64,000 nucleotides of DNA from the NCBI RefSeq assembly GCF_003008595.1, contig NZ_CP027671.1:1-64000 (forward strand), read 5' to 3'. The notes below the pieces were generated by a model. It was given only the letters and a program-made list of their open reading frames with translations, was not told where the DNA came from and did no database searches. The DNA comes from Simplicispira suum. GTDB lineage: Bacteria; Pseudomonadota; Gammaproteobacteria; Burkholderiales; Burkholderiaceae_C. Positions 16,070-34,691 of the stretch are shown here, piece after piece; the first letter of the stretch is position 1, and every line of letters begins with the position of its first letter. A program made the translations under genes and the position numbers.

Positions 16070-16236
16070 GCCTTGGGGTGCGCCTGGGCCATCTCTGGCA
16101 CGAGATTCGACACCTGGAGAAGGGAGCCGGTCTTGTTGCCCTCTCAGCCAACTTCCCGCTGTATGGCGACATGTCTGATCGCATGGCCAGCCTGGTGGCT
16201 GCGCTGGGTCACCGGCACGAGGTGTATTCGATGCAA
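16066..16236 (+). pseudogene. umuC: umuC fragment (5' side of the disrupted gene)
   Basis: Translation gives GVRLGHLWHEIRHLEKGAG followed by LVALSANFPLYGDMSDRMAS and a stretch ending HEVYS. This is the conserved segment of the Y-family DNA polymerase V catalytic subunit just before the catalytic YSIDE motif. Similarity stops exactly at YS and the N-terminal roughly 60 residues are absent. The C-terminal half of the same gene appears in the same orientation at about 26256-26977, ten kilobases away. The gene is therefore broken and an island lies between its parts. Confidence 0.82.
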
Positions 16237-16635
16237 CTTATACCCAAAACTGCCATAGATGCATCGAAGGCGATCATTTTACCTGGGGATAAGCCATTGA
16301 GGTCAACTATGTAAATTGACGGCGTCGTACATAGTTGGATTAAATGCGCGATGCAACATCGGTGTTGCGCCGTTCCCCGGCCAGAACGATGGCGGACGGC
16401 AGACGCTCGCCGCCTTTGCGAACCGCATCGTCGGCCCACTGAGCGGCAGGACTGCAGTGGCGACCAAAGGACGCATCGGACATGGCACCCGCCAGCCGCA
16501 GTCATAGCCAGCACCGTGTCGCGACAGCTTCGTGCCCAAAGCCGACCTCCCCACGACCGGCGAGGCACAGGCTTTGAGCTAGGCCCAGGTGGCTGAGAGA
16601 AATCATCCCCGCCCGACGTTGAACTCGATGCAACT
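16228..16635. repeat. 386-bp spacer between two 11-bp direct repeats
   Basis: TCGATGCAACT occurs at 16228-16238, right at the end of the umuC fragment, and again at 16625-16635, overlapping the stop codon of the GAP1-like gene. Between them lie about 386 bases in which no convincing gene is visible in any frame. The layout fits a small insertion with a target duplication, or the end region of the island. No terminal inverted repeat was seen. Confidence 0.5.
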
Positions 16636-18688
16636 ACCAGAGCTTCGAGTGCTGCTTGACGAAGTTCTTAACTAGTCGGCCTCGAGGTGAATTCCGGTCG
16701 AGGGCATCCCCCACTGAGCGAAGGTATCTCGAGCCACCCCACAGCTGCCAAATCTCCTCCAGAAGCTGAAGGAAAAGCTGGTCAGAGCGCATCAGCTGGG
16801 CTAGGCCTTCTGCGTGCAGCTGCAAGTCTGAGCATTTTCGTGCCGTGGCACGACGCAACCTGATGGCGTTGTCCCATTCCTGCCCAAACGGCGCCAATGG
16901 GAGGGAGTTTCCAAACAACCGCCACTGATCCTCAGGGAATGACTTACTTTCGGCCGCTACGTGAAGGGGCTCGAAGGTGAGCTTGAGAAGGTCTTCGACG
17001 CTACGTGAGCGTCGCCCCAGAGCGCGCCTATACCCATAGACCTGCAGCTCGAAAGGCAGGCTGCCCTCACATGCGGCGAGAGCCTGCAATGCCAAGTACC
17101 AGGGGTCGGCGCCAACCTCGTTGGGGATGGCCTCGGGATCGAGGGTGTCCGCCAGCAGCAGCAACAACTTCCTTGATGGCGCGGAAATACGGGCCAGGAA
17201 CTGCGCAACGGCGTTCGTGTCTGAACACAAGATTCGAAGCCATGGGCGAGCCTGGTCGTCGATGTTCGCCGACGCGACTAGGTGAGTAAGGCAATCTAGC
17301 GTCTGAAGGGACCCAACGGCTTGAACTGCAGCCTGGATCGAAGCTGGTTCTCGCAATCCAAGCAGCATTGCCTTGAGGACGGGAGCCTTGGAGAGTTCGA
17401 CGCCGGCGCGCGCAGCCAACGTCGGCAGCAACTTAGTGTGCTTCCAGAACTCTGGGACCTCGGCAATCGCCGGACGAAGAATGAGGAGCGGCACCGCCAA
17501 GTCTTCGACCTGAGAGAGTCTGTCCGTGATCGCAGCGCCCGGGATCGCCGCGGCGCCCGCCCGGATTGCTTCTCGAACCTCACCGCGTGAATCCATGCTC
17601 AATTCAAGTAGTCGTCTTGGATCGTGCTCCCAGAGCATCAGGGCGAACGGCTCTTGCTTCTCTGCGACAGCGGCCTCTGGAATCAGTGAGAAGTTGTCGA
17701 TGACGAAGTCCAGGACGTGTCCGTCAACCGACGACAGGTCCGTCATGGCTGACTGGGCCACGACGGATTTCACCAACTCTGAGGCCGAGAAGGCAGGAGA
17801 CTCTTCCACACGCCGCACTGCATCCGAGACGCCTTCTGCACCAGTAGCCTCTAGGGCCGCATGAAGGCTGCAGAACGGGCGCATTGCCTCACGGCCACCA
17901 AGAATGTCTGCGCCAAGCTTCCGCAAAAACGGCCCCAGCGTTGAAGCGTTCGGGAACTGTGCGTCGTGCACGAGGTCGTCCAGCCAAGGACCAGTTGATT
18001 TCGAACTCGCTTCGAGCCCCTCCACAGTCGACGAAAAGCGCAGAGGTGAACTCGACTTGCCGCCAGGGGTCAGCTGAAGATCGAACGGCAATCCGTCCTG
18101 GGAACGGTCTCTTGACGTCAGCGTGCAGAACCGGAAGGACCGCTTGAGCCGTGGCCACTGCTGATCCCATAGCCGCAATACCACGTCGTCGATTTCGCTT
18201 CCTTCGTTCCGACGCGCCCACACCTGTTCATCAGGGTGCTCGTACACCGCGCTCGCAAGAGTCGTGAACCACGAGGACGCCTCGGGGGAGAACGTGCGTC
18301 CTACGGGGTGGGCCTTTGGCTCAACCACGACATCAGTGGAGTAAGCGTCAAGAGGGGCCTTCATCATCGGTCGTTGATGAAGCTCGGTGATGGCGGAGGG
18401 TGACACCAACGTCGCTAGGTCGGCAAAGCCGATGAGTAAGGTGTGCGTCCAGACGCATCCTGGACGTGACATTTCAGGGGCTGGCCAAGTCCTAGCCAAT
18501 GCGTACATGCCCGACTCTGCCAACGGGTAGCCGGTGAGGTAGGGCAACCCCACCGACGCGATGCCAGGCCCAGACGCGTCGCTCATCACGAGCATCAGCC
18601 TGGCGTCCTTGGTCGGCAGGCTGACCGAACAAGCTAACTGGCGATGGCCGTCGGTGTAGCCGTGAAGCGCCTGATGAATCTTGACCAT
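16634..18688 (-). CDS. GTPase-associated protein 1-like (GAP1) of a conflict system
   Basis: A 684-aa protein, last gene of the five-gene operon. It opens KIHQALHGYTDGHRQLACS, the hallmark of the GAP1 N-terminal domain found with paired GTPases in predicted NTP-dependent conflict systems. The middle (residues about 150-330) and a long helical C-terminal half (LLILRPAIAEVPEFWKHTKL onward) match the expected GAP1-M and GAP1-C layout. No nuclease or protease motif is visible, so a regulator or scaffold of the GTPases is the likely role. Start at the ATG 18688; a GTG three bases earlier is also possible. Domain names are from memory of the family, not from a search. Confidence 0.78.
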   Translation of the reverse strand: MVKIHQALHGYTDGHRQLACSVSLPTKDARLMLVMSDASGPGIASVGLPYLTGYPLAESGMYALARTWPAPEMSRPGCVWTHTLLIGFADLATLVSPSAITELHQRPMMKAPLDAYSTDVVVEPKAHPVGRTFSPEASSWFTTLASAVYEHPDEQVWARRNEGSEIDDVVLRLWDQQWPRLKRSFRFCTLTSRDRSQDGLPFDLQLTPGGKSSSPLRFSSTVEGLEASSKSTGPWLDDLVHDAQFPNASTLGPFLRKLGADILGGREAMRPFCSLHAALEATGAEGVSDAVRRVEESPAFSASELVKSVVAQSAMTDLSSVDGHVLDFVIDNFSLIPEAAVAEKQEPFALMLWEHDPRRLLELSMDSRGEVREAIRAGAAAIPGAAITDRLSQVEDLAVPLLILRPAIAEVPEFWKHTKLLPTLAARAGVELSKAPVLKAMLLGLREPASIQAAVQAVGSLQTLDCLTHLVASANIDDQARPWLRILCSDTNAVAQFLARISAPSRKLLLLLADTLDPEAIPNEVGADPWYLALQALAACEGSLPFELQVYGYRRALGRRSRSVEDLLKLTFEPLHVAAESKSFPEDQWRLFGNSLPLAPFGQEWDNAIRLRRATARKCSDLQLHAEGLAQLMRSDQLFLQLLEEIWQLWGGSRYLRSVGDALDRNSPRGRLVKNFVKQHSKLW

Positions 18689-18698
18689 CACACCGCTG

Positions 18699-19634
18699 TC
18701 ATTCCAAGAGCCAGTTCACCGGCACGGTGAGGTCGTGCGAAATCACTTCTCCAACTACTACCTTGATGCGTTGCGAAGGGACCTCCATATCGCGCATCCG
18801 GTCAGCGTCAGCGGTAGGTGCGCCTTTGACATCGTCATATTCCGCACCCTGAGCGCTCACGCCAAATATGCGTTGTTCCCAACCAGCATTGAGACCATGT
18901 GTCAGGTACTGGTGCAGCAAAGGAAGGTGCATCTCCAGGAACCGTTCTGGTGACACCGCGTCGTCTTCGACCTTGTCCCACGCCGACAGGATGACCGCAA
19001 GCTTGCGGGGCCCAACGTCCAAAGGCAGGGCTTGCAGGCAGCGCAGAATGTCCACGAGCTGAACCTGGGTAGGAGACGATTCAGGTTTCCACGGTACAGC
19101 CTTTTCCCCCTGAGCGTTCGCCTGACCATCGGCCGGCGCTGCCCCTTCAGCAGCCGCCTGAGCATCCGTCTGGATGTCACCGTGAATGTCCCCCGGACCG
19201 TCACCCATGCTCTCGGCTAGAGCTGCGTCATCTGCGATCCAGCCAGGCGGCTTGATCTTGTCAACATGTATGAACAAAAGGACGCCGCTGGCGCGTAGCG
19301 CGTCAGCTACCGAGGGCGTGCACTCCCGCATCTCCCACATCTGGGAAAAGGCCTCGCCTGCAATGTCGGGAAACGCGAGGTCGAACACCTCCCCGCCCTC
19401 TGATTGCAAGGTAAGTTTGACGGTCTTGTTTCCGGAGTGGAATGTCCGCTCCTGCTTCTTGGCCTGGACCCACCGCGTAGCGATTTCTCGCAGGTACGCC
19501 GCTTCCTCAGCTGCGAGCTTCACGAGGCTAAGTCGCACCAGCACTTTCTTGTTGGTGAGGAGATGCCACAGGGCTGCTAGGAAGGTGGTCTTGCCGGATT
19601 CCGGAAGACCCATTGCAACAATGGCCTTACTCAT
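18699..19634 (-). CDS. P-loop GTPase of the conflict system (DO-GTPase1-like)
   Basis: A 311-aa cytoplasmic GTPase. Walker A GLPESGKT lies at residues 9-16, the Walker B/G3-like element FPDIAGE has Asp90, and LSAWDKVED (Asp219) takes the NKxD place for guanine recognition. An Ala/Gly/Asp-rich low-complexity stretch at 145-180 is an insert. It overlaps the second GTPase by eight bases. Paired GTPases of this kind occur together in the predicted GTPase-centred immune systems and may form a heterodimeric switch. Either GTP or ATP use would need testing. Confidence 0.82.
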   Translation of the reverse strand: MSKAIVAMGLPESGKTTFLAALWHLLTNKKVLVRLSLVKLAAEEAAYLREIATRWVQAKKQERTFHSGNKTVKLTLQSEGGEVFDLAFPDIAGEAFSQMWEMRECTPSVADALRASGVLLFIHVDKIKPPGWIADDAALAESMGDGPGDIHGDIQTDAQAAAEGAAPADGQANAQGEKAVPWKPESSPTQVQLVDILRCLQALPLDVGPRKLAVILSAWDKVEDDAVSPERFLEMHLPLLHQYLTHGLNAGWEQRIFGVSAQGAEYDDVKGAPTADADRMRDMEVPSQRIKVVVGEVISHDLTVPVNWLLE

Positions 19635-20661
19635 GGTCTGCCCTCGCGCGTGGGCGCAGCCGGCCGAACGAGCGCGCAGCTATCGGGATCACCGCCGGAA
19701 CCTTCGTTGGATGCAGGCAGGCAGGGTCAGACATCCAGTAGTGCAAGAGTTCCACCATGCCTGTGCCGCGGGCCGCTTTGGCGGACTGCGGTGACGCTGC
19801 AACGCGGAACGACTGAATCTCAATGAAGTGCTCAGAGAACTGGTCGCGCACGTCGTGAACGATGCCCTCGAAGAATTGCAAGACGCGCTCGGTCTTGGCC
19901 TCGTCCTTGAGTACCGCATCCAGCTTGGTGAGGACGACCGCGAGGCGCTGCCACGGACGGGTAGCGCCCGCTTCCTGGAATGCCCGAAGGGTCAGGCAGA
20001 TGTCGTCCCTCACCTGGTGGCGTAGCCCTAGGTCGAGAAGACGTTCACCGTCCGCCAGGACGGTTAGGACATCTGCTCGATGCAGTTCAACGAAGTCGTT
20101 GGCCAGCGCTGGATCGCTCTGTGCATCCATGTAGTCCTCGCCGGCTCGGTTCGCCAGCAAGGCTGCGCGCTTGTCATGGCAACCTGACGCAACAAGGTCA
20201 AGATGGAAGTAGGTTGCATCGCCACCCTGCGTGCGCTCCATCTTGGGCTTCTTGCGCTTCGATGCTCGACGTGTGTCGTGGCACGCAAGCTCGAACGAAT
20301 GAAGCGTCGAGGACCCCGCGAAGGTAAACCCGCCCACCGGCCCGTGCTGGAAGAGATCATAGGCGCCAGCGATGAGGCTGGTCTTGCCAGAGTCGAATGG
20401 GCCCACCAATGCGATGACATTGCACGGCTGGTTGCGCAGCAAGACCTGCGCTTGGCTGCGCGCCAGCGCTTCAGCGCTGGGCAGGCGGACTCCCGGGGTC
20501 GGCTTGGTGGCGGCCATCGACGTCGGCCGATCAACAATGACCAGAGCCTTGCCGTAGTGGGTGCAGGCCGCCAAGTCTTGACCTTCGATGCAGCGGCCAT
20601 CCTGGGCGACCTTGCAGTCCGGGTTGTCGCACTGAACGGTGTCTACTTCCTCTTCTACCAT
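19627..20661 (-). CDS. second P-loop GTPase with N-terminal Cys cluster (DO-GTPase2-like)
   Basis: A 344-aa protein. Residues 11-33 hold four cysteines (CDNPDC, then C24 and C33), probably a small zinc finger. The GTPase domain follows with Walker A GPFDSGKT (87-94) and TKLD (245-248) for guanine. Where the first GTPase has DIAGE this one reads NRAGED (171-176), so the Walker B Asp is missing. Start at 20661, five bases after the helical protein's stop; the longer open frame would run into that gene. Probably the partner of the first GTPase, perhaps with weak hydrolysis. Confidence 0.8.
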   Translation of the reverse strand: MVEEEVDTVQCDNPDCKVAQDGRCIEGQDLAACTHYGKALVIVDRPTSMAATKPTPGVRLPSAEALARSQAQVLLRNQPCNVIALVGPFDSGKTSLIAGAYDLFQHGPVGGFTFAGSSTLHSFELACHDTRRASKRKKPKMERTQGGDATYFHLDLVASGCHDKRAALLANRAGEDYMDAQSDPALANDFVELHRADVLTVLADGERLLDLGLRHQVRDDICLTLRAFQEAGATRPWQRLAVVLTKLDAVLKDEAKTERVLQFFEGIVHDVRDQFSEHFIEIQSFRVAASPQSAKAARGTGMVELLHYWMSDPACLHPTKVPAVIPIAARSFGRLRPRARADHE

Positions 20662-20666
20662 GGCAG

Positions 20667-21734
20667 TTATCCGAGCCGCGCCAGAGAGAACTCGCGGTAG
20701 GCCGCGGCAGCGAACTGAAGTGGCGACAACCGAGCCTCGCGCGGCAGCCCGGTCGTCGTGCACCAAGCGGCAATCCAGTCATCCTTTCCGTGAACCTCAT
20801 GTCGGCGCTGCATGGCGAAGAGGATCGGGGCCAAGGTTGCCGAAATGCCGTCAGTCGCCAACCCATCGACAGCGTTGTTGAGCCAGTCCTGCGGCATGCC
20901 TTGGACAGCCTCGGGAATCGACTGAAGCGGTGCATCCAGCAGGCCGGTCCGGGACAGCAGCGACGACAGCGCTGGCGGGCCGGGCAGCACCTTGGTCAGA
21001 CTCCCAAGCTCGCGTGCAATCGCCAGCGACAGGTGCTCCGGAGCGACCTTCGAGAAGTCGAGTCTCAGGTCGAAGCTGTGGCCGCCCTCTAACCACCACA
21101 GGATGTCGAGTTCCTCGTCTTGGATGTTGACGTACTTCTGTACAGCGGACTCGAACTCCCGTTGCCGACGGGCCATCGCCGAGACGGCCTTGTTCGTCGC
21201 AACAGCCAGGGCTTGCGCAACATTCAGCATGACCCCGGTGTTCACGGCCTGGATCAGCGCCTCGTCGTTTTTGTCCACCGTTGGGGCGACCAGCTTGACC
21301 TGCTCAAGCGAGGGCCGCCGGCGTGACGTTTCCGACAGTCGGCGTAGGACGTTGTCGGCCATCCCGACGAGGTCCATTGGTTGCTTCAGCTCGCGCAGCC
21401 CCCCGCATGACACGCTGGACACAACTGTTGCCGCGAGTGCAGTGACGCCGTCGGTCTCGGAGCCCGTCGCCGCCGCCAAAGCGGACGCCGACAACATGAT
21501 GAGTTCGTCGTCACCAGGCTGAGTCGCTTCGCCAGCGAGCGCCTGGCGAAGCGTCGCCACCTCAGATGACCCCATCTGAGGCGTGAGGCGGAATGCCAGT
21601 TTGGCTAGCAAGGCGAGGTCGGACTTGGTGACAGCCTCCACATAACCTTCAATCGCCGTCCAGCGCTTCTCGATCAACGCCGCATCCTGCTGGAACGACA
21701 TGCTGGCATACCAGCTCGAAAACTGATCTTGCAC
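20667..21734 (-). CDS. all-helical GTPase-associated protein (GASH-like)
   Basis: A 355-aa protein predicted to be almost all alpha-helical, with no signal peptide, membrane span or enzymatic motif. It has features of the GTPase-associated-system helical (GASH) family: an N-terminal FSSWYASMSFQQDAALIEKR, a central Ala/Val-rich bundle and a segment IQDEELDILWWLEGGHSFD in the second half. Position between the phosphoesterase and the GTPases is the expected one. Likely a sensor or adaptor; the assignment rests on pattern and context. Confidence 0.72.
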   Translation of the reverse strand: MQDQFSSWYASMSFQQDAALIEKRWTAIEGYVEAVTKSDLALLAKLAFRLTPQMGSSEVATLRQALAGEATQPGDDELIMLSASALAAATGSETDGVTALAATVVSSVSCGGLRELKQPMDLVGMADNVLRRLSETSRRRPSLEQVKLVAPTVDKNDEALIQAVNTGVMLNVAQALAVATNKAVSAMARRQREFESAVQKYVNIQDEELDILWWLEGGHSFDLRLDFSKVAPEHLSLAIARELGSLTKVLPGPPALSSLLSRTGLLDAPLQSIPEAVQGMPQDWLNNAVDGLATDGISATLAPILFAMQRRHEVHGKDDWIAAWCTTTGLPREARLSPLQFAAAAYREFSLARLG

Positions 21735-21749
21735 TTCTTCCCCCTTGGT

Positions 21750-23102
21750 TTAGTCGTTTTTCTCGTGCTTCTCGATTTGCTTGGCCAGTTCGGCCAGCAG
21801 ACCCTTTTCCTTGGCGAGCTTCAAGACGCTGTGATAGCGCTCGTGCGGCGCAACCTGCAGATCGGCCTTTGTGATGAGGCCAAGCTGGAGTGCGATGTCC
21901 CGCATCTGGCTGCCCCTGAGCTGCCAGAACCTGAAGATGAGATTGTCGGTGGACGGCTCAGTCACATCGGCCTCCGTCCGCGGCTTTGGGCGCACTTCGG
22001 ATGCAGCCGCCTCCATAGCAGTATGGACCGCCGAGGCGATATCTGTTCCGCCTTGAGGCGGAGTCACTACCTTCATCTCGGCCCAGCCCACTGCAAACGA
22101 CGGCATCTGCGGCAATTTCAGCTGAAGCCTCCAGAACTCGTCGCGTTCTTGGGTGAGTAGTGGGACAAACAGCTCGTTCGGGGCTTGTTGGAAGTGGCGC
22201 AGACGAGCACGAACTTCGACGCCGCGCGTCAGGCCCTCGCCATCCACATGAAGGTCGACCAGGTTGTATCCGGGGTTCCAGCGAGGCTCTTCCCGGTCAG
22301 GGTTCACCGCGCCGGCCAAGAAGCGGAAAAACTCAGGTGGCCGCAAGCAGCGCTGGTCATGCTCGTGACCAAAGAACTGTAGTGGTGCTCGCGCATTGAT
22401 GGTGTTCTCGGCATCGGCGGCATCAGAAAACCACGAAGGAGGGTGATGACTCAGCACCAGGTTGATCACGTCCTCCTGCGGATTCAAGACCACCTGTGCG
22501 CTGCCTAGGAAGAGTCTGCCGGGGGCGTTGTCCCGGTCGCCAAGGCCGGAAATCAGGACGGACGTGAGGCCGTACACGCGAAGCGTCACGCCATCGCCCA
22601 GCTTCAGGTCTTTCTCCCAGAAGGGGTATGACGGGAAGATGCCGCAATCGAACTGTGCAGCGAAGTCGTTGTAGGCCTGGAGCGGCTTGAAAAGCGCCTC
22701 CGCCGAAGGGGCATAGCCCAATTGCCGGGAGAGTTGCCTGTCGCGATTGAACAGCCCGACTTCCTTGGCGATTGCTTCTTGGGCATTCGAGACATCGACC
22801 GCCGCGCAGATCGCCCGGTCGATGTCGTGGTTACCAGGGACCGTCAAGATGCCCTCGGGCTCGCAACCGCAGCGAGCTGCGACACGCAGCAGCCAATCCT
22901 TTGCGGCCTTGTATTCGTCGGGATGGCCTTTGAACGCGATGTCGCCACCGACCAGGATGGCGTCGACCGGGATGCCGTCCTTGTTGCAGAGCTCAAGTAG
23001 GTCAGCCTCAAGGCGCGTTCGATACGGCGCGTCCCTGTCCCCGCGCGCGGTAAGGCACGCCGGCTCACGGAAATGGATGTCGGAGAGATGCAGTAGGCGC
23101 AT
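21750..23102 (-). CDS. calcineurin-like metallophosphoesterase with C-terminal adaptor-like domain
   Basis: First gene of the operon, 450 aa. The N-terminal two thirds is a complete dinuclear metallophosphoesterase: DIH at 8-10, GGD (Asp54), GNHD at 90-93, SHHP and GHEHD. The last 65 residues (RFWQLRGSQMRDIALQLGL to LLAELAKQIEKHE) form a compact helical module like the death-fold effector-associated domains that recruit effectors in bacterial conflict systems. It is a candidate effector or nucleotide/nucleic-acid phosphoesterase of the GTPase system. It stands 164 bases from gmtX, and the promoter should lie in that gap. Confidence 0.83.
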   Translation of the reverse strand: MRLLHLSDIHFREPACLTARGDRDAPYRTRLEADLLELCNKDGIPVDAILVGGDIAFKGHPDEYKAAKDWLLRVAARCGCEPEGILTVPGNHDIDRAICAAVDVSNAQEAIAKEVGLFNRDRQLSRQLGYAPSAEALFKPLQAYNDFAAQFDCGIFPSYPFWEKDLKLGDGVTLRVYGLTSVLISGLGDRDNAPGRLFLGSAQVVLNPQEDVINLVLSHHPPSWFSDAADAENTINARAPLQFFGHEHDQRCLRPPEFFRFLAGAVNPDREEPRWNPGYNLVDLHVDGEGLTRGVEVRARLRHFQQAPNELFVPLLTQERDEFWRLQLKLPQMPSFAVGWAEMKVVTPPQGGTDIASAVHTAMEAAASEVRPKPRTEADVTEPSTDNLIFRFWQLRGSQMRDIALQLGLITKADLQVAPHERYHSVLKLAKEKGLLAELAKQIEKHEKND

Positions 23103-23266: not shown

Positions 23267-23948
23267 TTAGCGTTCGCCGAGCACCTTCCGGATAGCTCGA
23301 GTGAAGCCAACCTTGAACACCGTTCGTCCCTTCTCTGTAAGGATTTCGCCGTGCGTACCCGTTCGCCAGCCCTGGTCATCCAGAAATGGGGCTGAGACGG
23401 CGTGGCGAAGTGCCTCCCGCTCGGATTCAGTGAGCTGGGCGTCCATCGTGAGAACGGCGATGGGATGGCCGTCGCCGCTCGGCACAATTGTTGCGGCGAG
23501 CGGGCGTCGGTCCACGGTCACCACAGTCTGGGACTTGAGCAGGTTCAACTGCCCTCGCAGCTTGTCTCGCTCGACCATCGTCGCCTGCATGATTGACCGG
23601 ACCGCCGGGTCTTCAATCCGCATCAGCAGCTCGAGTCCCTGCTGCCGGCTTCGGCGCGGCTTGTCGTCTTGGCTTGTCGACCCCTTGGAATGCCGCCCAG
23701 GCCGAGATTAAGCTGACGTAGTCAGCCGAGGCTGCGTTGTAGAGGGCGCGGCCCTTCAAGACGCCTTCGGCTTCGCAGATGCGTCCGATTGCAGACGTGG
23801 AGAAGTCCTTGGACCCGGAGTGTTGGCGCCGACAGATGTCATGCACCTTCTGAAGGTTTCCGAGTCGCTGGGAACGGCCGCCCTTCGCCAGCAGCGCTTC
23901 GAGCACGACGTCAGGATGAATTTCAGGCACGGTCTGCGCTTTACTCAT
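23267..23948 (-). pseudogene. gmtX: gmtX-like gene with one frameshift
   Basis: Two abutting frames together make one protein of about 225 aa. The first (23948 to about 23640) reads VVLEALLAKGGRSQRLGNLQ to SADYVSLISAWAAFQG. The second, in the next frame, reads MRIEDPAVRSIMQATMVERD, then KLRGQLNLLKSQTVVTVDRR. I recognise the pair as the GmtX protein of gamma-mobile-trio islands. The shift falls near 23630. Its start overlaps the end of the gmtZ remnant by eight bases. A programmed shift is possible but decay is simpler, since gmtZ is also broken. Confidence 0.68.
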
Positions 23949-26258
23949 GTTCGACCCTTAGAGTGAGGATGGGGTGCGACAACCGTGGATCGGCACGGAC
24001 CATTGCGCCGACATCAATGCCCAAGCGCTCACCGAGTCGTTCACCCGCATCCATCAGGCGGATGACCTCCCGTTCCCGAGCACCGGGTCGTTCGGCTCAA
24101 GCTGGCACGCGAGCTTGCGCATGAACGCATTGCCTTGCAGCAACTGTTCACGCTCCGATAGCTAGAGGAAAACTGGCGGCAAGTCTTCGCGATACATCGC
24201 GGCGTCGAGCAGTTGGCTGCGTCGAAACACTGCTTTGCCAGGGTCGAGGTCGGGGTAGATTTCAGCGCTCTCACAGACCCCCGAAAGTTGGCGCAACTCA
24301 GAGTCCTTTTCTTCGAACGCGAGCTGCACGTCGGCCAGTGTGCCGGCAGCCACGAGCTGCGAGCCAGCGTTGCCGCCATGGTTCAGTGCATGCTGGCAGC
24401 GTTCGATGAGTCGATAGCACGCGACCAAATCCTCCGCCAGGTCGCTGAACTTCGACATCGCGCTTTCCCAAACGCGCTCCGCCTGCCGGAACGCTGCCAT
24501 GCGAGCAAACGGGACGCGCGCGTCCTCAGCTTCGGCCTTCGTGACTCGAAGCCTGTGCAAGGTCTCCTCGTCGGCAAGGCAAGCGTTGCGAGCTTCGTCG
24601 AATCGATAGGCGATGGTGTTGAAATGCGCGGCCAGCGCCGGCAGGTGATGTGGCTCGGTGACAAACCAGCGGCATCGAATGCAATTTCGAACGCCGCCTG
24701 GCACGGGTGCGTAGATCGGCATCGACAAGTTGCCGACGTTGGGACCGCCGTTGTGACAGCCGCCCAAGGGATAGCCTTCAACCTCGCAAGTGTTCCCTCC
24801 AACAAGGCAGAGCCCGTGGTGCGTGGGCATCCACCAGGATTCCGCTCCGTGACGTGTGCGGGAATGGCGGCAGCGAAGCTCGTCTGACAGTTACTGATGG
24901 CCGACGACACCAGCGCATCATGGGCAGTGTCCAAGAGGAAGTGCTGGATGCTGCGCTCTTTGTTCGCCTCGAGGTGAGCCGCCCCAGCGATGAGCTGCTC
25001 GCGCATGTAGTTGCACCAGGCTTCGTGTAGTACAGGCTCATCAGCAAGCGGCTGTGTCCGACGAGCTTCTGCAGGATGGGAAAGGGCACGTTCCCTTCGA
25101 GCGCCAGGGCGGTGATGAGCGACACGCGCAGGCTGTGCAGTGGGAAGAGCGTGCGGATGCTCTTGTCGCCGGCTGAAAGGGTGGGCAACAAGCGAACACA
25201 CGAGCCATCTGCGTGCGTGTCACCCCGGAACGCGAGCCGAGTCTCGAGGGCGTCCATCAGGTAGAACCAAGCGCGGTTCATCAACGCGTCAGTAACCGGC
25301 AAATCTGGGCGAGCAGATTCTGCCAATCGGAAAAGGAAGCAGGCGTCGGGATAGCTTGCGAGCTGGATTTCGCTCTTGGCCTGAATGTGGCGGCCGTCGA
25401 GCTCCGTCCAGGGTGTGCGGCGAGCAATCGGGTTGTATTTCTCCTGCCAGTTGCGGAGTTTCTCCAACCAATAGAACGCTTGCTGGTGAACTTGGCCATC
25501 CTCCGGCCACGGCAGGACGTACCCTTTCACTGGGCCCGCGAGGTAGCGGTCCGCCGTCTTGTTGGTGTTGACGTAGAGCGCAGACCCGATGGCGCCGCCC
25601 TGCGTCAGAGCCTGCCTTCGAAGCACTCCGTTTTGCCACGGCCGTGTCTCGCTGCCAGAAGCCAAGGGACCGGTGTTCAGCGCCCATGCACCTGACGTAT
25701 ATCGCCAGGTGTCCGCTTCACCAGAGTCAAGGAACCTGACCTGCATGGTCCGCAGCGGCAGTATCAGCTTGGTGAGGAGCGCCACCCATCGCACGGGACT
25801 CCACATTTCGAGAACGGCTGGCTTTTCGTTGGCCTTCGGCCTCACGCGCCAGACGCAATCAGGGTCAGTGCGGTCAATATCATCCTCGGTGACCGGGAAC
25901 CAGTCTGGCGCAACGATGCCACCCATGCCAATCCTGGGCCCTGAGACGGTGTGGGCCCACGTCCAATCGGCGAAGTTCGGGCATGCGGCAAGCATTTGGC
26001 GCTGCTCGTCGATGGTAGCGGCGAGTGAACGCTCTCGTCTAACCTTGGTAGGCCACGTCGAGACATCTTTGGCACGGGATTTCGGAATGCCGGCGAGATG
26101 ACAGGATGCCCGTCGTCAGCTGTTTCACTGAAATCACGCAGCAGCACCCATTCCAGGAACTTGTTGATGATGTTGTTGTAGGACGCGCCAGCATTCGACT
26201 TGGGACACACCGATGCGTAAAAATCAGGTAGGTGCGTCTGACGGAGCAGGAAGACTGC
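23941..26258 (-). pseudogene. gmtZ: gmtZ-like large integrase, N-terminally truncated, several frameshifts
   Basis: A large island integrase can be followed through at least five reading frames. It begins LPDFYASVCPKSNAGASYNN and INKFLEWVLLRDFSE, then PNFADWTWAHTVSGPRIGMG. The recombinase core reads LFPLHSLRVSLITALALEG, then LQKLVGHSRLLMSLYYTKPG. Next come NKERSIQHFLLDTAHDALV and a Cys-bearing part (CEVEGYPLGGCHNGGPNVG), ending PRLSHPILTLRVEHE. The Arg, His-x-x-Arg and Tyr residues of a tyrosine recombinase are visible, but translation is interrupted about every 200-700 bases. Its 5' end stops where umuC sequence resumes near 26258, and no gmtY partner is seen. The island should no longer move by itself. 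Confidence 0.7.
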
Positions 26259-26977
26259 AGGCGTAGGACGCAAGATCTCGGTGCAGCTCAAGGAAGCAGG
26301 CATCCAGAGTGTCCTGGATCTGGCACGCCTAGATCCGGCCAATGTGCGCAGGCGTTGGTCTGTCGTTCTGGAGCGCACGGTGCGTGAACTGCAGGGTATG
26401 CCTTGTATCGAGCTGGACGAGCAGCCTGCTCCCAAGAAAGAGATTGCTTGCAGCCGGTCGTTTGGGCGCCCGGTCAATGAGCTCCCGGATCTGGAGCAGG
26501 CCGTGACCACGTTTTCCTGCATGGCGGCGCAGAAGCTGCGCAAACAGCAAAGCCATACGGCCCATGTGCTGGTGTTCATTCACACCAGCCCTTACCGCCA
26601 AGGACCCACAGTACGCACGCACAGACCTACGAGCGACACGGGCACCCATTGTCAAAGCGGCATTGACCGGACTGCGCAGGATTTACCGCCCCGGCTACCA
26701 ATTCATCAAGGCCAGTGTCATGTTGCTGGACCTACACAGCGCACGCCTGCGACAGGGTGAGCTCGATCTGGAACCACTGGAAACTTCGGACGACTCCCGT
26801 GAACGGCGAATGGGGGTGCTTGATGAACTCAATCAGCGGTATGGCCGGGGAACGGTGCAGTTGGCCGGCGCTGGGCTGCAGGTAGCAGGTGTGCATGCAC
26901 GCGGGGCGATGCGGCAGGAGCGTAGGTCGCCGGCTTATACGACCTGCTGGGAGGACATGCTGGTGGTGGGGGCCTAA
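26256..26977 (+). pseudogene. umuC: umuC fragment (3' half of the disrupted gene)
   Basis: Starting at GVGRKISVQLKEAGIQSVLD and continuing LARLDPANVRRRWSVVLERT and RELQGMPCIELDEQPAPKKE, this is the little-finger half of UmuC. The end KASVMLLDL to RSPAYTTCWEDM is in another frame, so a frameshift lies near 26620-26650. It matches in orientation and order the fragment at 16066-16236. About 85 residues between them, including the catalytic SIDE region, are missing. Confidence 0.85.
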
Positions 26978-27022
26978 TCCAACGCTTCGGCCCGGAAATT
27001 CTGCCGAATACTGTCGTATAGG

Positions 27023-28098
27023 TGTCGCATCCCGGACGATTGCCTAGACTCTAAGCGCTACCCGTTATTCATGGCCAGGGCCGTTCTGCGGGAGTTGATA
27101 GAGTCGCTTCAACCCACCGGGAGCCTCAAGCCATGCTGATTACACTGCACAAGAACGCCCGCACCACCCCGCCATACGTGCCGAGATGGCCGCCAGTAGC
27201 GAGTCTGCTGCAGTGCTCGCCAAGCGCTTTAACGTCACCGAACAAACCGCCGCCAAGTGGAAGAAGCGCACGAGCGTTGCTGACCGCTCGCACACAGCAC
27301 ATCACCTTCAAACCCAGCTCACCAGTGCACAGGAGACGGTCGTGGTGCATCTGCGCCGCACCTTGCTGCTGCCGCTTGACGACTTGTTGGCAGTGACCAG
27401 GGAGTTCATTTGCCCCAGCGTCTCTCGCTCTGGGCTGGACCGGTGCCTGCGCCGCCATCGCGTGGGTAACTTGAATGCGCTCAAGCCCAAGACGCCGAGC
27501 GAGCCCCACAGGGCTTTCAGGCTCTACGAGCCGGGGTACCTGCACATTGACGTGAAGTACCTGCCCCAGATGCAGGATGAGATCAAACGTCGCTATCTGT
27601 TTGTCGCCATCGACCGGGCCACGCGGTGCGTGTTCGTGGTCATCAAGGACAACAAGACAGCTGTCAGTGCCCAAGCCTTCTTGCGGGCCTTGCACCAGGC
27701 GTGCCCTATCAAGATCCAAAAGCTGCTGACCGACAACGGCAAGGAGTTCACCGACCGCTTGTTTGCCAACCGCGAGAGCGCGCCCAGTGGCAACCATGAA
27801 TTTGACCAGCTGTGCCAGCAGTTCGGGATAGAGCACCGGTTGACTCGGCCCAGAACGCCCAAGACCAGCGGGATGGTGGAACATTTCAATGGACGCATTG
27901 CCGATGTACTCAAGACGGACCGGTTCACGGGCAGCGAGGACTCGCAGCAGACGCTGCTGCGCTACGTGGCGCTGTACAACCACCAATTGCCGCAGTCAGC
28001 CTTGAAGAGCAAGACACCGATGCAGGCCACGAAAGAGTGGCACCATTCGCATCCGCATTTGTTTAACAAGCGGCCTTATGATCGTGCGGGATGCGACA
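27023..28098 (+). mobile_element. IS481-family insertion sequence
   Basis: Terminal inverted repeats TGTCGCATCCCGGACGAT (27023-27040) and its complement with one mismatch (28081-28098) bound a 1076-bp element with one transposase gene. No clear target duplication was found at the flanks. It sits 45 bases after the umuC remnant and two bases before an IS630 copy. A decayed copy of its right end in opposite orientation lies at about 34364. Confidence 0.82.
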
Positions 28099-28103
28099 GC
28101 TAG
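27133..28103 (+). pseudogene. IS481-family transposase with N-terminal frameshift
   Basis: The first codons (MLITLHKNARTTP) are in one frame and the rest, from IRAEMAASSESAAVLAKRF, in another. One base seems to be missing near 27172. From the ATG at 27186 an uninterrupted 305-aa protein remains with helix-turn-helix and DDE core (HIDVKYLP, LTDNGKEF, GMVEHFNGR), so reinitiation could still give a nearly complete enzyme. Its stop codon TAG at 28101-28103 lies outside the inverted repeat, in the left end of the adjacent IS630. Confidence 0.75.
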
Positions 28104-29348
28104 TAGTTCGTTCCATCAATACAGTTACTAAATAGATGATAATCGCCATGCTTCTTCAACTCATGAAGGTGGTGATCATGGCGAGAAAATCTGAACGGCC
28201 GCCGTTGGTTCTGACCGCACAGCAACGGGCCAAACTGCAGGATCTGTCGGCGTCGCGGGTGGCGCCCGCGCGCGAAGTGGAACGTGCCAAGGTGATGTTG
28301 GGCTATGCCGATGGTGTATCGATCACGGAACTTCAGCGCCGGCTTGGGTTCAGCCGACCCATGATCTACCGGTGCGTGGACAAGGCGCTGGCCGCAGGTG
28401 TCCAGATGGGACTCAAGGATAAGTACCATCGGCCACACGAACCGGAGATCAGCGACGAAGCCAAGGCGTGGGTGGTCAGCATCGCATGTACCAAGCCCAA
28501 GGTTCATGGCCTGGCGGCCGAGTTGTGGTCGATCTCGGCGCTGGCGCGGTTTGTTGGCGAGCGAGCGCAGGCTGCTGGCTTCCCCCGCTTGGCCAATGCG
28601 GGCAAGAGCACCGTCTGGCGCATCCTGGACGACAACGACATCAAGCCGCACAAAATTCGCTACTACCTGGAAAAGCGCGACCCCGACTTTGATCGCAAGA
28701 TGCAGGAAGTCCTGATGGTTTATCGGGACGTTTCGCTCTACACCGAGGGCGCTGTTCACGATGCAAGGCCCAACCCCATCTACACCGTCAGCGTCGATGA
28801 GAAGCCCGGTGTTCAAGCTATCGGGCTGACCGCCCCCGATTTGCCGCCGGTACCGGGCAAGGCCGCCAGTGTCGGGCGTGACTATGAGTACGTTCGCCAC
28901 GGAACAGTGTCCATCCTGGCCGGTATCGACCTGCATTCGGGGCACATCTTTGCCAACATCGAGGATCGCCACCGCAGTATCGAATTCATTCGTTTGCTCA
29001 AACAACTCGATGCGCACTACCCCGAGGATGCGATCATCCGCGTGGTGCTGGATAACCACTCGGCCCATATCTCCAAGGAGACCATGGCCTACCTCAGCAG
29101 CCGCCCCGGGCGCTTTGAGTATGTTCATACGCCCAAGCATGGCTCTTGGCTCAACTTGATAGAGTGCGCCTTCTCCAAAATGGCGCGTACATTCCTGCGA
29201 CACATCAGGGTTACATCCAAAGACGATCTAAAGCAACGCATCCTCAAAGGCATCGCAGAGATCAATGCATCGCCGGTAGTGTTTCGTTGGAACAAATTCG
29301 ACCTCGGGGTGGCCTAATATGTATTCGTTTTAATGAAACGAACTACTA
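28101..29348 (+). mobile_element. IS630-family insertion sequence
   Basis: Ends TAGTAGTTCGTT at 28101-28112 and the complementary AACGAACTACTA at 29337-29348 extend to a 19-bp inverted repeat with two mismatches. The outermost TA on both sides fits the TA target duplication of IS630/Tc1-mariner elements. It is directly next to the IS481 copy and contains one intact transposase. Confidence 0.85.
28178..29317 (+). CDS. IS630-family transposase
   Basis: About 379 aa, DDE transposase. An N-terminal helix-turn-helix region (ITELQRRLGFSRPMIYRCVD) is followed by the catalytic core with SVDEKPGVQA (first Asp), VLDNHSAHISKE (second Asp) and HGSWLNLIECAFSKM (Glu). The reading frame is intact, so this copy may be active. 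The ATG at 28178 begins MARKSERPPL, the usual N-terminus; earlier in-frame ATGs exist at 28136 and 28163. Confidence 0.88.
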   Translation: MARKSERPPLVLTAQQRAKLQDLSASRVAPAREVERAKVMLGYADGVSITELQRRLGFSRPMIYRCVDKALAAGVQMGLKDKYHRPHEPEISDEAKAWVVSIACTKPKVHGLAAELWSISALARFVGERAQAAGFPRLANAGKSTVWRILDDNDIKPHKIRYYLEKRDPDFDRKMQEVLMVYRDVSLYTEGAVHDARPNPIYTVSVDEKPGVQAIGLTAPDLPPVPGKAASVGRDYEYVRHGTVSILAGIDLHSGHIFANIEDRHRSIEFIRLLKQLDAHYPEDAIIRVVLDNHSAHISKETMAYLSSRPGRFEYVHTPKHGSWLNLIECAFSKMARTFLRHIRVTSKDDLKQRILKGIAEINASPVVFRWNKFDLGVA

Positions 29349-29349
29349 G

Positions 29350-29398
29350 GGAGCAAAAATAAGGCAAAAGAGTGTCACAAAGTTCGAATTTTTGCTCC
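29350..29398. repeat. 11-bp inverted repeat beside the recombinase module
   Basis: GGAGCAAAAAT at 29350-29360 and ATTTTTGCTCC at 29388-29398 face each other across 27 bases, directly after the IS630 end and about 80 bases before the large recombinase gene. It could be a recombinase binding site, an element end, or a hairpin in the leader. No T-run follows. Confidence 0.5.
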
Positions 29399-29480
29399 GT
29401 CTTATAGCTACGACAGGGCAGAGAACGGAACAATTTTAAGAAAAATGAACGCGCTCTTCAAGTTGCACTGAGTGGCCGCT

Positions 29481-31703
29481 ATGAGCAATCGCACCGTCTT
29501 CCCTACCGCCGCTGCCGACATCGAGGAGCCAGTTGCCTCGCAAGCAAGTGCGCCCAAGCGCCGGCGCGGCCGTCCACTGGGAGCGCGCACGCGCGTGGTT
29601 CATACACGCATCACCGCCGACGAATTCGCTTTTCTCAGGGCGGTGGCCCAAGACGTAGATCTGACAGTTGCCTCGCGCCAGTATCTGCTCTGGCCAGGCC
29701 GCCAGCCAGAGCGTATCGCGCTGGAGGCGTACTGCGCCGAGTTGCTTCAACGGATCCAGCACGGTGCGATGGCATTGCCTGATCAAAGCATTGCCAAGTC
29801 CATGCTCCAGGAGCTTCGAAATCTGCGCTATGTCCAGAACGAAGGCCGTTTGCCCAAAGAAGCGATCGTCCCGTCCGTGGAGTTGCTCACGGGCGCCTCT
29901 GATTCATCCCCCTCGACTGAGCTAGCTGAAATCCCTCCCACCTTGGAGGAATTCGCTCTTCGGTTCGATGAGGACATGTTCGGCGAGGCCGAGCTGCTGG
30001 AGTTGTACCTGGCCGAGTATCCGCCCAATGCCATTGCACAGTCGGGTGCGATAGATCCTTCACGGAGCGATATCTTGCCTGCTCGCGATGGCATTGGGCT
30101 GCAGCGCTCCGACAGCTGCAGCGTGCGAACAGAGACGCTGCTTCATGTCATCGAGTGGCTCGATCGCAATTTGGGCGTGCGGCCCGAACGCGAGCACCTC
30201 ATCGGCCAGTGGATTCGCTTGAGCAAAGCCCAGCGCGAAGCGATGAATCGCGCCGGTGTGATCAGCCTGGGCAACTTGGCGGACTGGATATCTTTGCAGG
30301 GGCCAAAGTGGTTTGACCGCTTTCCGCGTTATGGCACAGCTCGTGCCCGTGCGCTGGAGCTTTGGCTCCTAAAGTGGGATCTCAAACCCGCCCAAGGACT
30401 GCGTGAGATTGGAAGCCAAGGCGCCATCGTCCCCGCGAGCCAGTCGAGGCTTGTGCCTATCAAGGCGCGGCCATGGCCAGACGATCTGCGTGGTGAAAAC
30501 GGCCGGTTCCGAGGTCAAGGGCCGAACTCCTTCGATGCGCATGATGACGTGGAGGCGGTCCAGAAGTGGTTCGATCTGATTCGAGAGAAGTCCAAGGCGA
30601 CCCAGATCGCCTACAGGCGCGCGATCGAGCGCCTGGTCTGGTGGGCGCTCCATGAGAAACGCGTACCGCTGTCTTCACTCAGCACGCCTGATTTGCTCGA
30701 ATTCAAGGCCTTTTTAAGGGACCCACCCGCTCACTGGGTGCAGCCTGAGCGCGGAAAGGGCGGCACAGGGGGGCAGGATTGGCGCCCACTCAAAGGACCG
30801 CTCAATGACAAGAGCATGAACCTGACCTTCGCTGCTGTGGGAGCGATGTTCAGTAGCTGGAAGGAGAAGAACTACATCACGAGCAACCCGGCCTTCGGGA
30901 TGGCTGGCCCCAAGCGGGAGGACATCACGCTCGATGTCATGCGCTCGTTCACGGACCATGATTTGGCGGTAATCGGCGAGACCTTTGCAAAGCTGGAGGA
31001 TTCCCCGGCCAAGAGGCGACTTGCCGCCATCCTGCGTCTGCTGGAGACAACCGGACTGCGGCGCGAGGAATTGGAGACTGCAACGTGGGCAGCCATGGAA
31101 CGTGCACGCATCGACGGCGCCACCTCAGAAGAGTGGTTGCTCGATGTGATGGGCAAGGGCAAGCGCAAACGCAAGGTGCCGATCACTGAGGCGGTGCGCG
31201 AGGCGCTGGAGATTCACCGCCAAGACCGTGTCCTTCTTGCGAAGACCAAACCCAAACTGCAGTTTGACGTTGCGTTCGAGGACATGCCCCTCATCGGAGT
31301 GATTGATGATCGGTGGCGGGCCCATATGGAAAAACAACACTACCAGCGGCTGGCATCGGGGAGCCCCGAAGTGACAGACAGCGCCCAGGATGCCGACCAG
31401 GATGGTGCAGACAAATTGCGAGCCAAGGGAGCCCTTTCTGGCTCCGGCATTTATGCCGTCTTGCGGGCATTCTTCAAGAAGTGCGCGGCCCAGGACGATG
31501 ACCCGAGCGGCCCATTTTTGAAGGCCTCAACGCATTGGCTTCGGCACACCTTTGCCCACCACGCGCTGGACGCGACGGACAAAGACGTTCCGGTCGTTCA
31601 GCAGCTTCTCGGACATTCGTCGATCAACACTACGCTCGTGTATGTGAAGGCTGATCCGAAAGCGCGAATTGATGCGGTGCGAAAAATCAAGATGTCGATC
31701 TGA
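29481..31703 (+). CDS. large tyrosine recombinase/phage integrase family protein
   Basis: About 740 aa, much longer than common integrases. An N-terminal basic tail (PKRRRGRPLGART) and a helical region lead to a middle domain (WLDRNLGVRPEREHLIGQW to PKWFDRFPRYGTARARALEL) like the extra domain (DUF3701 type) of Burkholderiales integrases. The SAM-like core-binding domain follows (KWFDLIREKSKATQIAYRRA), then the catalytic domain with TTGLRREEL, HWLRHTFAHH and GHSSINTTLVYV, giving Arg, His-x-x-Arg, His and Tyr. All catalytic residues are present. The ATG at 29481 was preferred to a GTG nine bases earlier. It heads a module with HU and HTH genes. Confidence 0.85.
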   Translation: MSNRTVFPTAAADIEEPVASQASAPKRRRGRPLGARTRVVHTRITADEFAFLRAVAQDVDLTVASRQYLLWPGRQPERIALEAYCAELLQRIQHGAMALPDQSIAKSMLQELRNLRYVQNEGRLPKEAIVPSVELLTGASDSSPSTELAEIPPTLEEFALRFDEDMFGEAELLELYLAEYPPNAIAQSGAIDPSRSDILPARDGIGLQRSDSCSVRTETLLHVIEWLDRNLGVRPEREHLIGQWIRLSKAQREAMNRAGVISLGNLADWISLQGPKWFDRFPRYGTARARALELWLLKWDLKPAQGLREIGSQGAIVPASQSRLVPIKARPWPDDLRGENGRFRGQGPNSFDAHDDVEAVQKWFDLIREKSKATQIAYRRAIERLVWWALHEKRVPLSSLSTPDLLEFKAFLRDPPAHWVQPERGKGGTGGQDWRPLKGPLNDKSMNLTFAAVGAMFSSWKEKNYITSNPAFGMAGPKREDITLDVMRSFTDHDLAVIGETFAKLEDSPAKRRLAAILRLLETTGLRREELETATWAAMERARIDGATSEEWLLDVMGKGKRKRKVPITEAVREALEIHRQDRVLLAKTKPKLQFDVAFEDMPLIGVIDDRWRAHMEKQHYQRLASGSPEVTDSAQDADQDGADKLRAKGALSGSGIYAVLRAFFKKCAAQDDDPSGPFLKASTHWLRHTFAHHALDATDKDVPVVQQLLGHSSINTTLVYVKADPKARIDAVRKIKMSI

Positions 31704-31748
31704 TCAGTCTGCGCTATAAACAGGCACTATTTACCGAGTCCCATTGCA

Positions 31749-32057
31749 ATGAACCGCTCTGAAATCATCGAAGTCCTGGCAGCGAAAAACAGCCTTACCA
31801 AAGTCGCCGCGAGCGCGGTTCTCGACACGCTCATCGAGACCATTCAAACAGCCGTAAAAAAAGGCGATGCCGTCCAGCTGGTGGGATTTGGCACCTTCAA
31901 GGCATCCAAGCGCGCTGCGCGCGTGGGCAAGAATCCTGCGACTGGCGCCACTCTGAAAATCCCGGCAACGACTGTGCCAAAGTTTGTTGCTGGCGCGAAG
32001 TTCAAGGCGGTGGTCGATCCCAAAGCCGCCAAGCGCAAGGCCCAGAAGAACGCATAG
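31749..32057 (+). CDS. HU-family DNA-binding protein
   Basis: A 102-aa histone-like protein. It opens MNRSEIIEVLAAKNSLTKVA, has the core VQLVGFGTFKASKRAARVGK and NPATGATLKIPATTVPKF (the beta-arm), and a short Lys-rich tail (KAAKRKAQKNA). It lies 45 bases after the large recombinase and may act as its DNA-bending accessory; that link is inferred from position. Confidence 0.9.
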   Translation: MNRSEIIEVLAAKNSLTKVAASAVLDTLIETIQTAVKKGDAVQLVGFGTFKASKRAARVGKNPATGATLKIPATTVPKFVAGAKFKAVVDPKAAKRKAQKNA

Positions 32058-32137
32058 GGATCGGGTGAGCGGATCCTGCGTCACCCTTACGCCGGCATCT
32101 CGCGCCTACAGGCGCGTGCAACACAGGACATCAGCAG

Positions 32138-32611
32138 ATGACAGCGTTCTCCGAAGCATTTAGATCGGAAGTGGTGCGCTTGGCACGCCGTGAAGTCAAA
32201 GCGGACCTGGCCTCTTTGCGCAAGTCCGGCGCAGCTCAGCGAGCCGAAATCTCCGCGCTGAGGAAGGACATCCGAGCCCTCCTCGTTCAAGTACGCTCCC
32301 TATCCAAAGGGGTCGAGCGTGCGATGCCAGAGCAGCCTGCGACAAAAACGCCACCGGCCGCACGGCGCGGGGGACGCCCCTTTGTCTTTCGTCATGAGGT
32401 TTTGCTGGCCAAGCGTGCGGCCTTGGGCATGACGCAGACAGAAATGGGCGTCCTTCTTACAGCGTCTCCGCTGTCGGTGTACCGCTGGGAAACAGGCAAG
32501 GCCAAGCCACGAGAAGCGCAGTTGAAGCGCATTCGCCAAGTCCTGAAGATGGGTGTGCGTGAGGCCAGGAAATGTGTCGCCGCTGGCCAGAACCCGAGCG
32601 CGCTCGCTTGA
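32138..32611 (+). CDS. HTH (XRE-like) regulator with N-terminal coiled coil
   Basis: A 157-aa protein. Residues 1-65 are a charged helix likely to form a coiled coil (ADLASLRKSGAAQRAEISAL). After an AT-hook-like RRGGRPF, the C-terminal part is a Cro/XRE helix-turn-helix (LAKRAALGMTQTEMGVLLTA, then SPLSVYRWETGKAKPR). It belongs to the recombinase-HU module and may control its expression. Confidence 0.85.
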   Translation: MTAFSEAFRSEVVRLARREVKADLASLRKSGAAQRAEISALRKDIRALLVQVRSLSKGVERAMPEQPATKTPPAARRGGRPFVFRHEVLLAKRAALGMTQTEMGVLLTASPLSVYRWETGKAKPREAQLKRIRQVLKMGVREARKCVAAGQNPSALA

Positions 32612-32624
32612 AGCGGCGCAGTCC

Positions 32625-34363: not shown

Positions 34364-34457
34364 TGTCTCGCATCCCGGACGATCATAAGGCCGCTTATTA
34401 AACAAATGCGGGTATGAGTGGTGCCACTCTTTCATGGCTTGTATGGGTCTCTGCGAA
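34364..34457 (-). mobile_element. remnant of an IS481 right end
   Basis: Beginning TGTCTCGCATCCCGGACGAT, this sequence follows the complement of the last roughly 90 bases of the IS481 element at 27023-28098, with scattered substitutions and a two-base insertion in the terminal repeat. The rest of the element is missing. Its outer end points toward the recombinase module, so IS481 right ends bracket 28099-34363 in inverted orientation. A short unassigned frame (NHNHNHDFAVTNNAVVVLPS) fills 34458-34642. Confidence 0.68.
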
Positions 34458-34691
34458 GTTAGGGGACAGCCTTTCTGCTTCAGCCTTGGGGTTGGCCACG
34501 CCAATCGCAATCACAATCACAATCACGATTTCGCCGTTACCAATAATGCGGTTGTGGTGCTTCCAAGCCGCAAAGTGCCTGTGTTCCAGTGCACGGCGCG
34601 AAATGTCAACGGGCTGCGTTACGAAGGCTGCATTGATAAATGGGCGGATTCAAAAGTGAAGTGCAACACCTGCCACCTGTAAGGTCTGCAG

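Follow-up and report, generated by a model that had tools for sequence, protein, structure and literature searches.

A predicted GAP1-N1 double-GTPase conflict system beside remnants of a Gamma-Mobile-Trio island on a plasmid-like contig of Simplicispira suum

What might a compact operon of five intact genes do for its host, or for the element that carries it, when the mobility genes beside it have decayed? The question is raised by the first 64,000 nucleotides of contig NZ_CP027671.1 of Simplicispira suum (this whole stretch is hereafter called the window), where the open reading frame (ORF) map showed five intact, full-length and co-directional ORFs on the minus strand at 16634-23102. In order of transcription they encode a phosphoesterase, a GASH protein, DO-GTPase2 (DO2), DO-GTPase1 (DO1) and GAP1, and the intergenic gaps of 15, 5, -8 and 7 bases confirmed the initial annotation, which had described full-length genes on one strand that overlap or lie within 16 bases of each other (Table 1). 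An upstream TTG at 20766 provides an alternative start for DO2, which would then have 379 amino acids (aa). A Pfam profile search, in which bit scores were judged against the curated cut-offs, placed all five proteins above cut-off: the phosphoesterase matched Metallophos (46 bits, cut-off 21.5) and GAAD (61.5 bits, cut-off 23.6), GASH matched PF19994 (62 bits), DO2 and DO1 each matched their own family (207 and 239 bits; PF19975 and PF19993 for the two), and GAP1 matched GAP1-N1 (PF20012) over residues 4-103 (110 bits), the cut-off being 27 for each of the last four. The families proposed beforehand (GAP1-N, DO-GTPase1/2, GASH and a phosphoesterase) were all recovered in this way, whereas Pfam had nothing at E<=1 for the further domains looked for, GAP1-M and GAP1-C, beyond the N domain of this 685-aa protein, which was aligned with 58 relatives of like length. 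The GAAD domain at the C-terminus of the phosphoesterase had not been named before.

Judged by its protein families, the operon belongs to the GAP1-N1 "GTPase-centric" subsystems and is a further member of a class described in 2020. In the parts of Kaur et al. (2020, eLife 9:e52696, PMC7159879) considered here, GAP1-N1 systems consist of GAP1, GASH and two DO-GTPases, one of them with a zinc ribbon; a calcineurin-type phosphoesterase is the most common effector domain, GAAD is an adaptor, a GTPase switch acting on a phosphoesterase effector is predicted, and the systems lie in mobile neighbourhoods and are common in proteobacteria. Compared with that description, the window has the same composition as far as Pfam matches reach (GAP1-M and GAP1-C had none), including the fusion of the phosphoesterase to GAAD, and no structural difference was seen; the gene-order counts, the asymmetry of the GTPases, the fast-changing segment of GAP1 and the context of island and plasmid reported below are new with respect to it. 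We consider it likely that the operon encodes an infection-triggered, GTPase-gated phosphoesterase effector, i.e. a double-GTPase conflict system of GAP1-N1 type that forms the cargo of a decayed Gamma-Mobile-Trio (GMT) island on a plasmid, because the family composition equals the published one, the gene order is fixed, the effectors are exchanged and the distribution is patchy. No experimental study of a GAP1-N1-type system was found in the literature searched, which covers few subscription papers, in agreement with the annotation's remark that little such work exists; the class is thus one of predicted immune systems for which this search returned no experiments, and a compact, intact copy with a candidate sensor segment and mutable motifs makes the 2020 prediction directly testable.

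Table 1. Coordinates of the operon, its domains and motifs, the remains of the island, and the loci with a partial effector match
Feature	Location	Strand	Details
Metallophosphoesterase with C-terminal GAAD adaptor, first gene, putative effector	21750..23102	-	450 aa; Pfam Metallophos and GAAD
GNHD motif of phosphoesterase, residues 90-93	22824..22835	-	sequence; N91 and H92 in 59/61 aligned
GAAD adaptor domain, residues 385-445	21768..21950	-	Pfam PF19976
GASH protein	20667..21734	-	355 aa, GTG start; Pfam GASH
DO-GTPase2 with N-terminal zinc ribbon	19627..20661	-	344 aa; Pfam DO-GTPase2
Zinc-ribbon four-cysteine stretch of DO-GTPase2	20563..20631	-	each Cys in 53-54/74 aligned; window has all four
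Walker A GPFDSGKT of DO-GTPase2	20380..20403	-	GK in 74/74
DO-GTPase1	18699..19634	-	311 aa; Pfam DO-GTPase1
Walker A GLPESGKTT of DO-GTPase1	19584..19610	-	GKT in 74/75 aligned, one gap
SAWD of DO-GTPase1, in the position of the NKxD motif for guanine specificity	18975..18986	-	W 74/75, D 75/75
GAP1, type GAP1-N1, last gene	16634..18691	-	685 aa, GTG start; Pfam GAP1-N1
GAP1-N1 domain, slowest-changing segment of operon	18383..18682	-	Pfam; segment identities
Candidate sensor face: GAP1 residues 301-500, the segment that changes fastest	17192..17791	-	segment identities
gmtX, broken, two frames	23267..23948	-	NCBIfam NF040692 in 2 ORFs; tblastn
gmtZ remnant with several frame breaks, lacking residues 1-82	24072..26261	-	NCBIfam NF047926 in 3 ORFs; tblastn with intact relatives
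Interrupted umuC, 5' part, left island edge	16071..16232	+	79-88% to L093/L094; UmuC residues 45-100
Interrupted umuC, 3' part, right island edge, two frames	26260..26983	+	76-77% to L093/L094; UmuC residues 193-435, two overlapping matches
Loci with partial phosphoesterase-profile match (n=8)	L036, L039, L056, L067, L068, L070, L071, L073		

An aligned set of DO1 from the window and 37 of 120 listed relatives (38 sequences) served as query in a scan of genome contigs that yielded 73 loci, and together with three further DO1 loci and the window itself a total of 77 loci, picked by similarity to the window DO1, were examined. This set contains repeats, in that L004 duplicates a portion of L010, L008 a portion of L033, and DO1 and GAP1 of L066 are identical to those of L067; L004 and L008 are incomplete (L008 stops at GASH), so both stand outside the complete loci counted here. 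All five genes were present in 64 of the 77 loci, and in 64 of these 64 they followed the order phosphoesterase-GASH-DO2-DO1-GAP1, which argues that the arrangement is not due to chance. The median gaps in the complete loci were 2, 1, -4 and -16 bases, and the gaps did not exceed 30 bases in 63, 63, 63 and 64 of the 64, respectively. The record titles of the loci, with named genera assigned to their groups, span proteobacteria, acidobacteria, planctomycetes, myxobacteria, Flavobacterium, Chloroflexi and further groups. Such systems are sparsely distributed: of 399 genomes of the order, five had GAP1-N1 over cut-off and exactly these five also had GAAD over cut-off, at a distance of about 3 kb in every case, with one further GAP1-N1 match under cut-off (G099), and among 100 relatives DO1 was over cut-off in three, including the genome of the window, and matched at E<=0.001 in five. 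Synonymous divergence (dS) of DO1 was 0.34-0.42 among the operons of Giesbergeria (L033), Acidovorax delafieldii (L035) and Paraburkholderia metrosideri (L053), and 0.85 between those of Pyxidicoccus (L048) and a planctomycete metagenome-assembled genome (L054). These values indicate that the operon has moved horizontally between families and phyla, with the usual doubt that attaches to contigs of metagenome-assembled genomes.

A match to the phosphoesterase profile was found in 66 loci and covered nearly the whole profile in 58. Among the eight partial cases, the match in L039 stops at the contig edge, the phosphoesterase of L067 lies in two overlapping pieces, and a 364-aa ORF separates the two pieces of that of L068. 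Other loci have a different gene at the place of the effector: L070 encodes a PNP_UDP_1 domain joined to GAAD (PNPase-GAAD), L056 (4418-8032) a 1205-aa protein with a C-terminal GAAD and otherwise only a weak NPHP3_N match under cut-off, and L073 (7288-7977) a 230-aa protein with GAAD whose N-terminal part received no family assignment. In L036 (5612-7856), a gene for a patatin-like phospholipase overlaps a separate 139-aa GAAD protein ahead of GASH. A second, divergent DO-GTPase system, in which GAP1 and a caspase both end in EAD1, was found in a genome of the window's genus (G002; L142:3112-9882), which also holds a phosphoesterase-type system whose phosphoesterase is 39% identical to that of the window and has an exact stretch of 300 bases in common with L033, a Giesbergeria anulus record. 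Overall, these loci show that the effector gene is exchanged while the core stays. As a separate observation, section 28 of Kaur et al. (PMC7159879), judged by its text without the figures, names no patatin effector; that of L036 has its adaptor on a chain of its own.

Nine positions of the phosphoesterase (8, 10, 54, 91, 92, 219, 220, 246 and 248), which we take to be the metal ligands, were conserved in 59-61 of the 61 aligned sequences, and the window has all nine; the exceptions are L070, with its PNPase-type effector, and L071. The catalytic residues of the predicted effector are intact by this measure, and the GAAD fusion (PF19976) through which it would be coupled is present on the same protein. 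The best NCBIfam matches of the phosphoesterase were DS8_antiphage (69.6 bits) and DS9_1_antiphage (60 bits), followed by SbcD (23.9 bits); the first two lie far under their cut-offs of 790 and 420 and point to a shared domain only, not to membership. According to the portions of PMC13092281 consulted, phage defence by the metallophosphatases DS-8 and DS-9 depends on the catalytic residues predicted for them. The phosphoesterase domain family is common to these proteins and the window effector, whereas DS-8 is a single protein with a NACHT domain and DS-9 is paired with a HAD phosphatase, in contrast to the five-gene operon of the window, and neither GAAD nor a DO-GTPase is mentioned in those portions (PMC13092281). 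A PADLOC search gave partial matches of the phosphoesterase to PDC-S60 (43 bits) and to an effector model (34.5 bits), and the nearest solved relatives were Rv0805 and Icc, with weak matches over residues 3-97.

Both DO-GTPases, one of them with a zinc ribbon, were found with the conserved Walker B glutamate (PF19975, PF19993), and the two departed from textbook GTPase motifs in opposite places. In DO1, the switch motif DxxGE is invariant at D90, G93 and E94 (75/75), and the base motif S-A-W-D was found in 73, 69, 74 and 75 of 75 aligned sequences, with S-A-Q at the expected SAK position in 75, 71 and 70. In DO2, the T-K-x-D motif (TKLD, G4, in the window) has its K and D in 74 of 74, as do the G and E of the switch motif (NRAGE, G3, in the window), while the switch aspartate is kept in 51 of 74 and replaced in 23 (E in 11, N in 8 and A in 4). 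The window has N, and the other seven loci with N are its near relatives, among them a repeat (L004), which indicates one inherited change and not eight. In these motifs DO1 and DO2 are complementary. We infer from this asymmetry a switch with split duties, in which DO1 would provide the catalytic DxxGE and read the base through a non-canonical SAWD, DO2 would provide the canonical TKxD, often without the switch aspartate, and only the heterodimer would cycle, with GAP1 residues 301-500 as the invader-recognition surface that trips it; we hold this proposal as possible rather than probable. If it were true, a heterodimeric GTPase pair would be a new type of switch in bacterial immunity. Separately, an acidic, alanine-rich insert was noted at residues ~140-180 of DO1 (18699-19634), which occurs also in the closest relatives and is missing from most of the 38 aligned sequences.

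Rates of change were compared over 11 segments in the 59 loci that were present in all five protein alignments. Median pairwise identity was highest for GAP1-N (46%), followed by the phosphoesterase core (39%), GAAD and DO1 (37% each) and the GTPase domain of DO2 (32%). GASH, the linker of the phosphoesterase, the N-terminus of DO2 and GAP1 104-300 lay at 24-26%, GAP1 501-685 at 23% and GAP1 301-500 at 14%. Of the 1546 pairs, 1168 had GAP1-N as the most similar segment and 1271 had GAP1 301-500 as the least similar of the 11; among 25 disjoint pairs, GAP1 301-500 was the least similar in 16. Because the segment varies so much, misalignment may inflate its apparent speed. In the 13 pairs with a DO1 dS of 0-1, the ratio of nonsynonymous to synonymous divergence (dN/dS) was 0.15-0.45 for GAP1 301-500, 0.13-0.43 for the phosphoesterase linker and 0.04-0.11 for the phosphoesterase core. 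The middle of GAP1 therefore changes fast in these alignments, with no dN/dS above 1 that would point to positive selection. The initial annotation had proposed both GAP1 and the helical protein (GASH) as sensors of infection; for GAP1 this is supported indirectly, by the hypervariable residues 301-500, and for GASH nothing specific supports it, as its variability is moderate and its AlphaFold2 model, nearly all helical with a long helix at 169-217 and a mean pLDDT of 93.6, gave no clear fold match in structure comparison.

The neighbourhood of the operon points to a mobile island. The founding paper on GMT islands is said to be that of Mahata et al. from 2024. Intact trios in other genomes have the order gmtY-gmtZ-gmtX, with a gmtY product of 466 aa from the Phage_integrase family; beside the window cargo only remnants of gmtZ and gmtX were found, and the GmtY proteins of two relatives gave no match on the 97-kb contig at E<=1e-3 (tblastn). 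The window thus resembles a GMT island in these remnants and differs in that gmtY was not found, gmtZ and gmtX are broken, the host belongs to the Burkholderiales and the cargo is a GAP1-N1 system, and the mobility region is best described, from its gene remnants, as a decayed GMT derivative. GmtZ is rare: of 399 genomes in the order, six (among them that of the window) had a match at E<=1e-30 and three had one over cut-off, and in the class it was over cut-off in 1 of 369 genomes. In L093 and L094 the island-flanking sequences lie within one umuC, 277 bases apart, whereas in the window the flanks end at 16232 and resume at 26260. The operon is therefore island cargo, as had been annotated, with parts of one umuC on its two sides and the gmt remnants next to it, and the heavy frameshifting reported for the mobility genes was borne out. 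Since gmtZ begins at residue 83 at 26261, i.e. at the umuC edge, a deletion has probably taken away gmtY together with the beginning of gmtZ and a portion of umuC. That selection has kept the cargo intact, as also proposed, is plausible on a small comparison, namely 6.5 kb unbroken versus several breaks in the ~3 kb of gmtZ-gmtX. Two further observations concern this region: an imperfect inverted repeat at 16295-16346 near the left island edge (19-base arms, 14 apart, 79% complementary) is possibly a recombinase site, and a second GmtX-like fragment, 31% identical, lies outside the window at 82573-82809 of the same contig.

A working model of the conflict system can be drawn from these results. 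GAP1 would sense an invader product via its variable middle, its conserved N domain would read or set the state of the asymmetric DO1-DO2 pair, GASH would serve as an obligate scaffold, a GTP-dependent rearrangement would release or assemble the phosphoesterase via its GAAD, and the phosphoesterase would cleave a nucleotide or a nucleotide signal, and infected cells would thereby be arrested in growth or killed. The annotation's roles for the GTPase pair as switch and the phosphoesterase as effector equal the prediction in the published text considered here (PMC7159879) and fit the intact catalytic residues and the relationship to DS-8 and DS-9, whose need for catalytic residues in phage defence, the strongest outside argument, supports the model as a whole together with their place as best NCBIfam matches (PMC13092281, in part). 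Further support comes from the description of GMT islands as carriers of antiphage systems, in the portion of PMC12039261 considered, and from GAP1 301-500 as the least similar segment. Several results weigh on the other side. There is no known phage or plasmid phenotype for such operons, and PADLOC had no clear model for the core, its best match being LeoA for DO2 at 17.4 bits. dN/dS never exceeded 1 in the 13 pairs, so the speed of GAP1 may reflect weak constraint and no arms race, and the weak, partial matches to Rv0805 and Icc point to no particular substrate of the phosphoesterase. In addition, the effector was mostly constant in the sample (58/66), although the loci had been chosen by likeness to the window DO1, and GMT genes occurred in only 1 of the 77 loci, that of the window.

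The same switch and effector might instead protect their plasmid or island from other mobile elements, by plasmid exclusion or inter-element conflict, with incoming plasmid DNA or a transfer protein as the trigger in place of phage. Genes for Rep3, a ParA-type protein and ParB are present on the 97,155-base contig; its ends do not overlap, and because of these genes it is probably a plasmid. Moreover, 20 of 72,556 plasmid records carry relatives of DO1, of which 14 are predicted to be conjugative and 6 mobilizable, with no match in 50,697 phage records and none of 62 pattern matches on viral contigs confirmed. However, anti-phage systems too are expected to be absent from phage records, most of the 73 scanned loci are on genome contigs rather than on demonstrated plasmids, and the related DS-8 and DS-9 phosphoesterases act against phage (PMC13092281, as far as consulted), and we judge this account unlikely.

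Quite improbable, in our assessment, is a regulatory or stress module of GTPases, serving nucleotide homeostasis, envelope stress or signalling with no invader as target. It would suit the intact phosphoesterase with its weak relationship to Rv0805 and Icc, the lack of a known phenotype, a YcjX-like Pfam match of DO1 (11.6 bits, under cut-off) and a single mention, in the part of the phage-shock paper PMC11237479 considered, of a DO-GTPase-family protein in gammaproteobacterial psp operons, predicted for membrane stress. A very patchy distribution (5 of the 399 genomes surveyed in the order), the transfer across families (L033/L035/L053) and phyla (L048/L054), the exchangeable effectors including caspase and patatin, and the location on a mobile island all speak against it. 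The least probable account is an addiction cargo, in which the phosphoesterase is a toxin restrained by a GTPase/GAP1/GASH complex so that loss of the operon harms the cell: the plasmid-like contig, the intact cargo beside broken mobility genes and an effector gene that is first in the operon and exchanged would fit, whereas five large proteins with a GTPase pair would presumably be costly for addiction, an XRE-RES toxin-antitoxin pair is already on the contig, and the constant core with its variable GAP1 segment suggests sensing.

Outside the operon and island, three further features were noted. To the right of the island, IS481, IS630, two tyrosine-recombinase genes and IS110 stand in a row at 27186-36294 of the window, the XRE-RES pair maps to L092:6812-7884 of the same contig, and a gene for an AbiEii-type toxin lies at 62343-63188 of the window.

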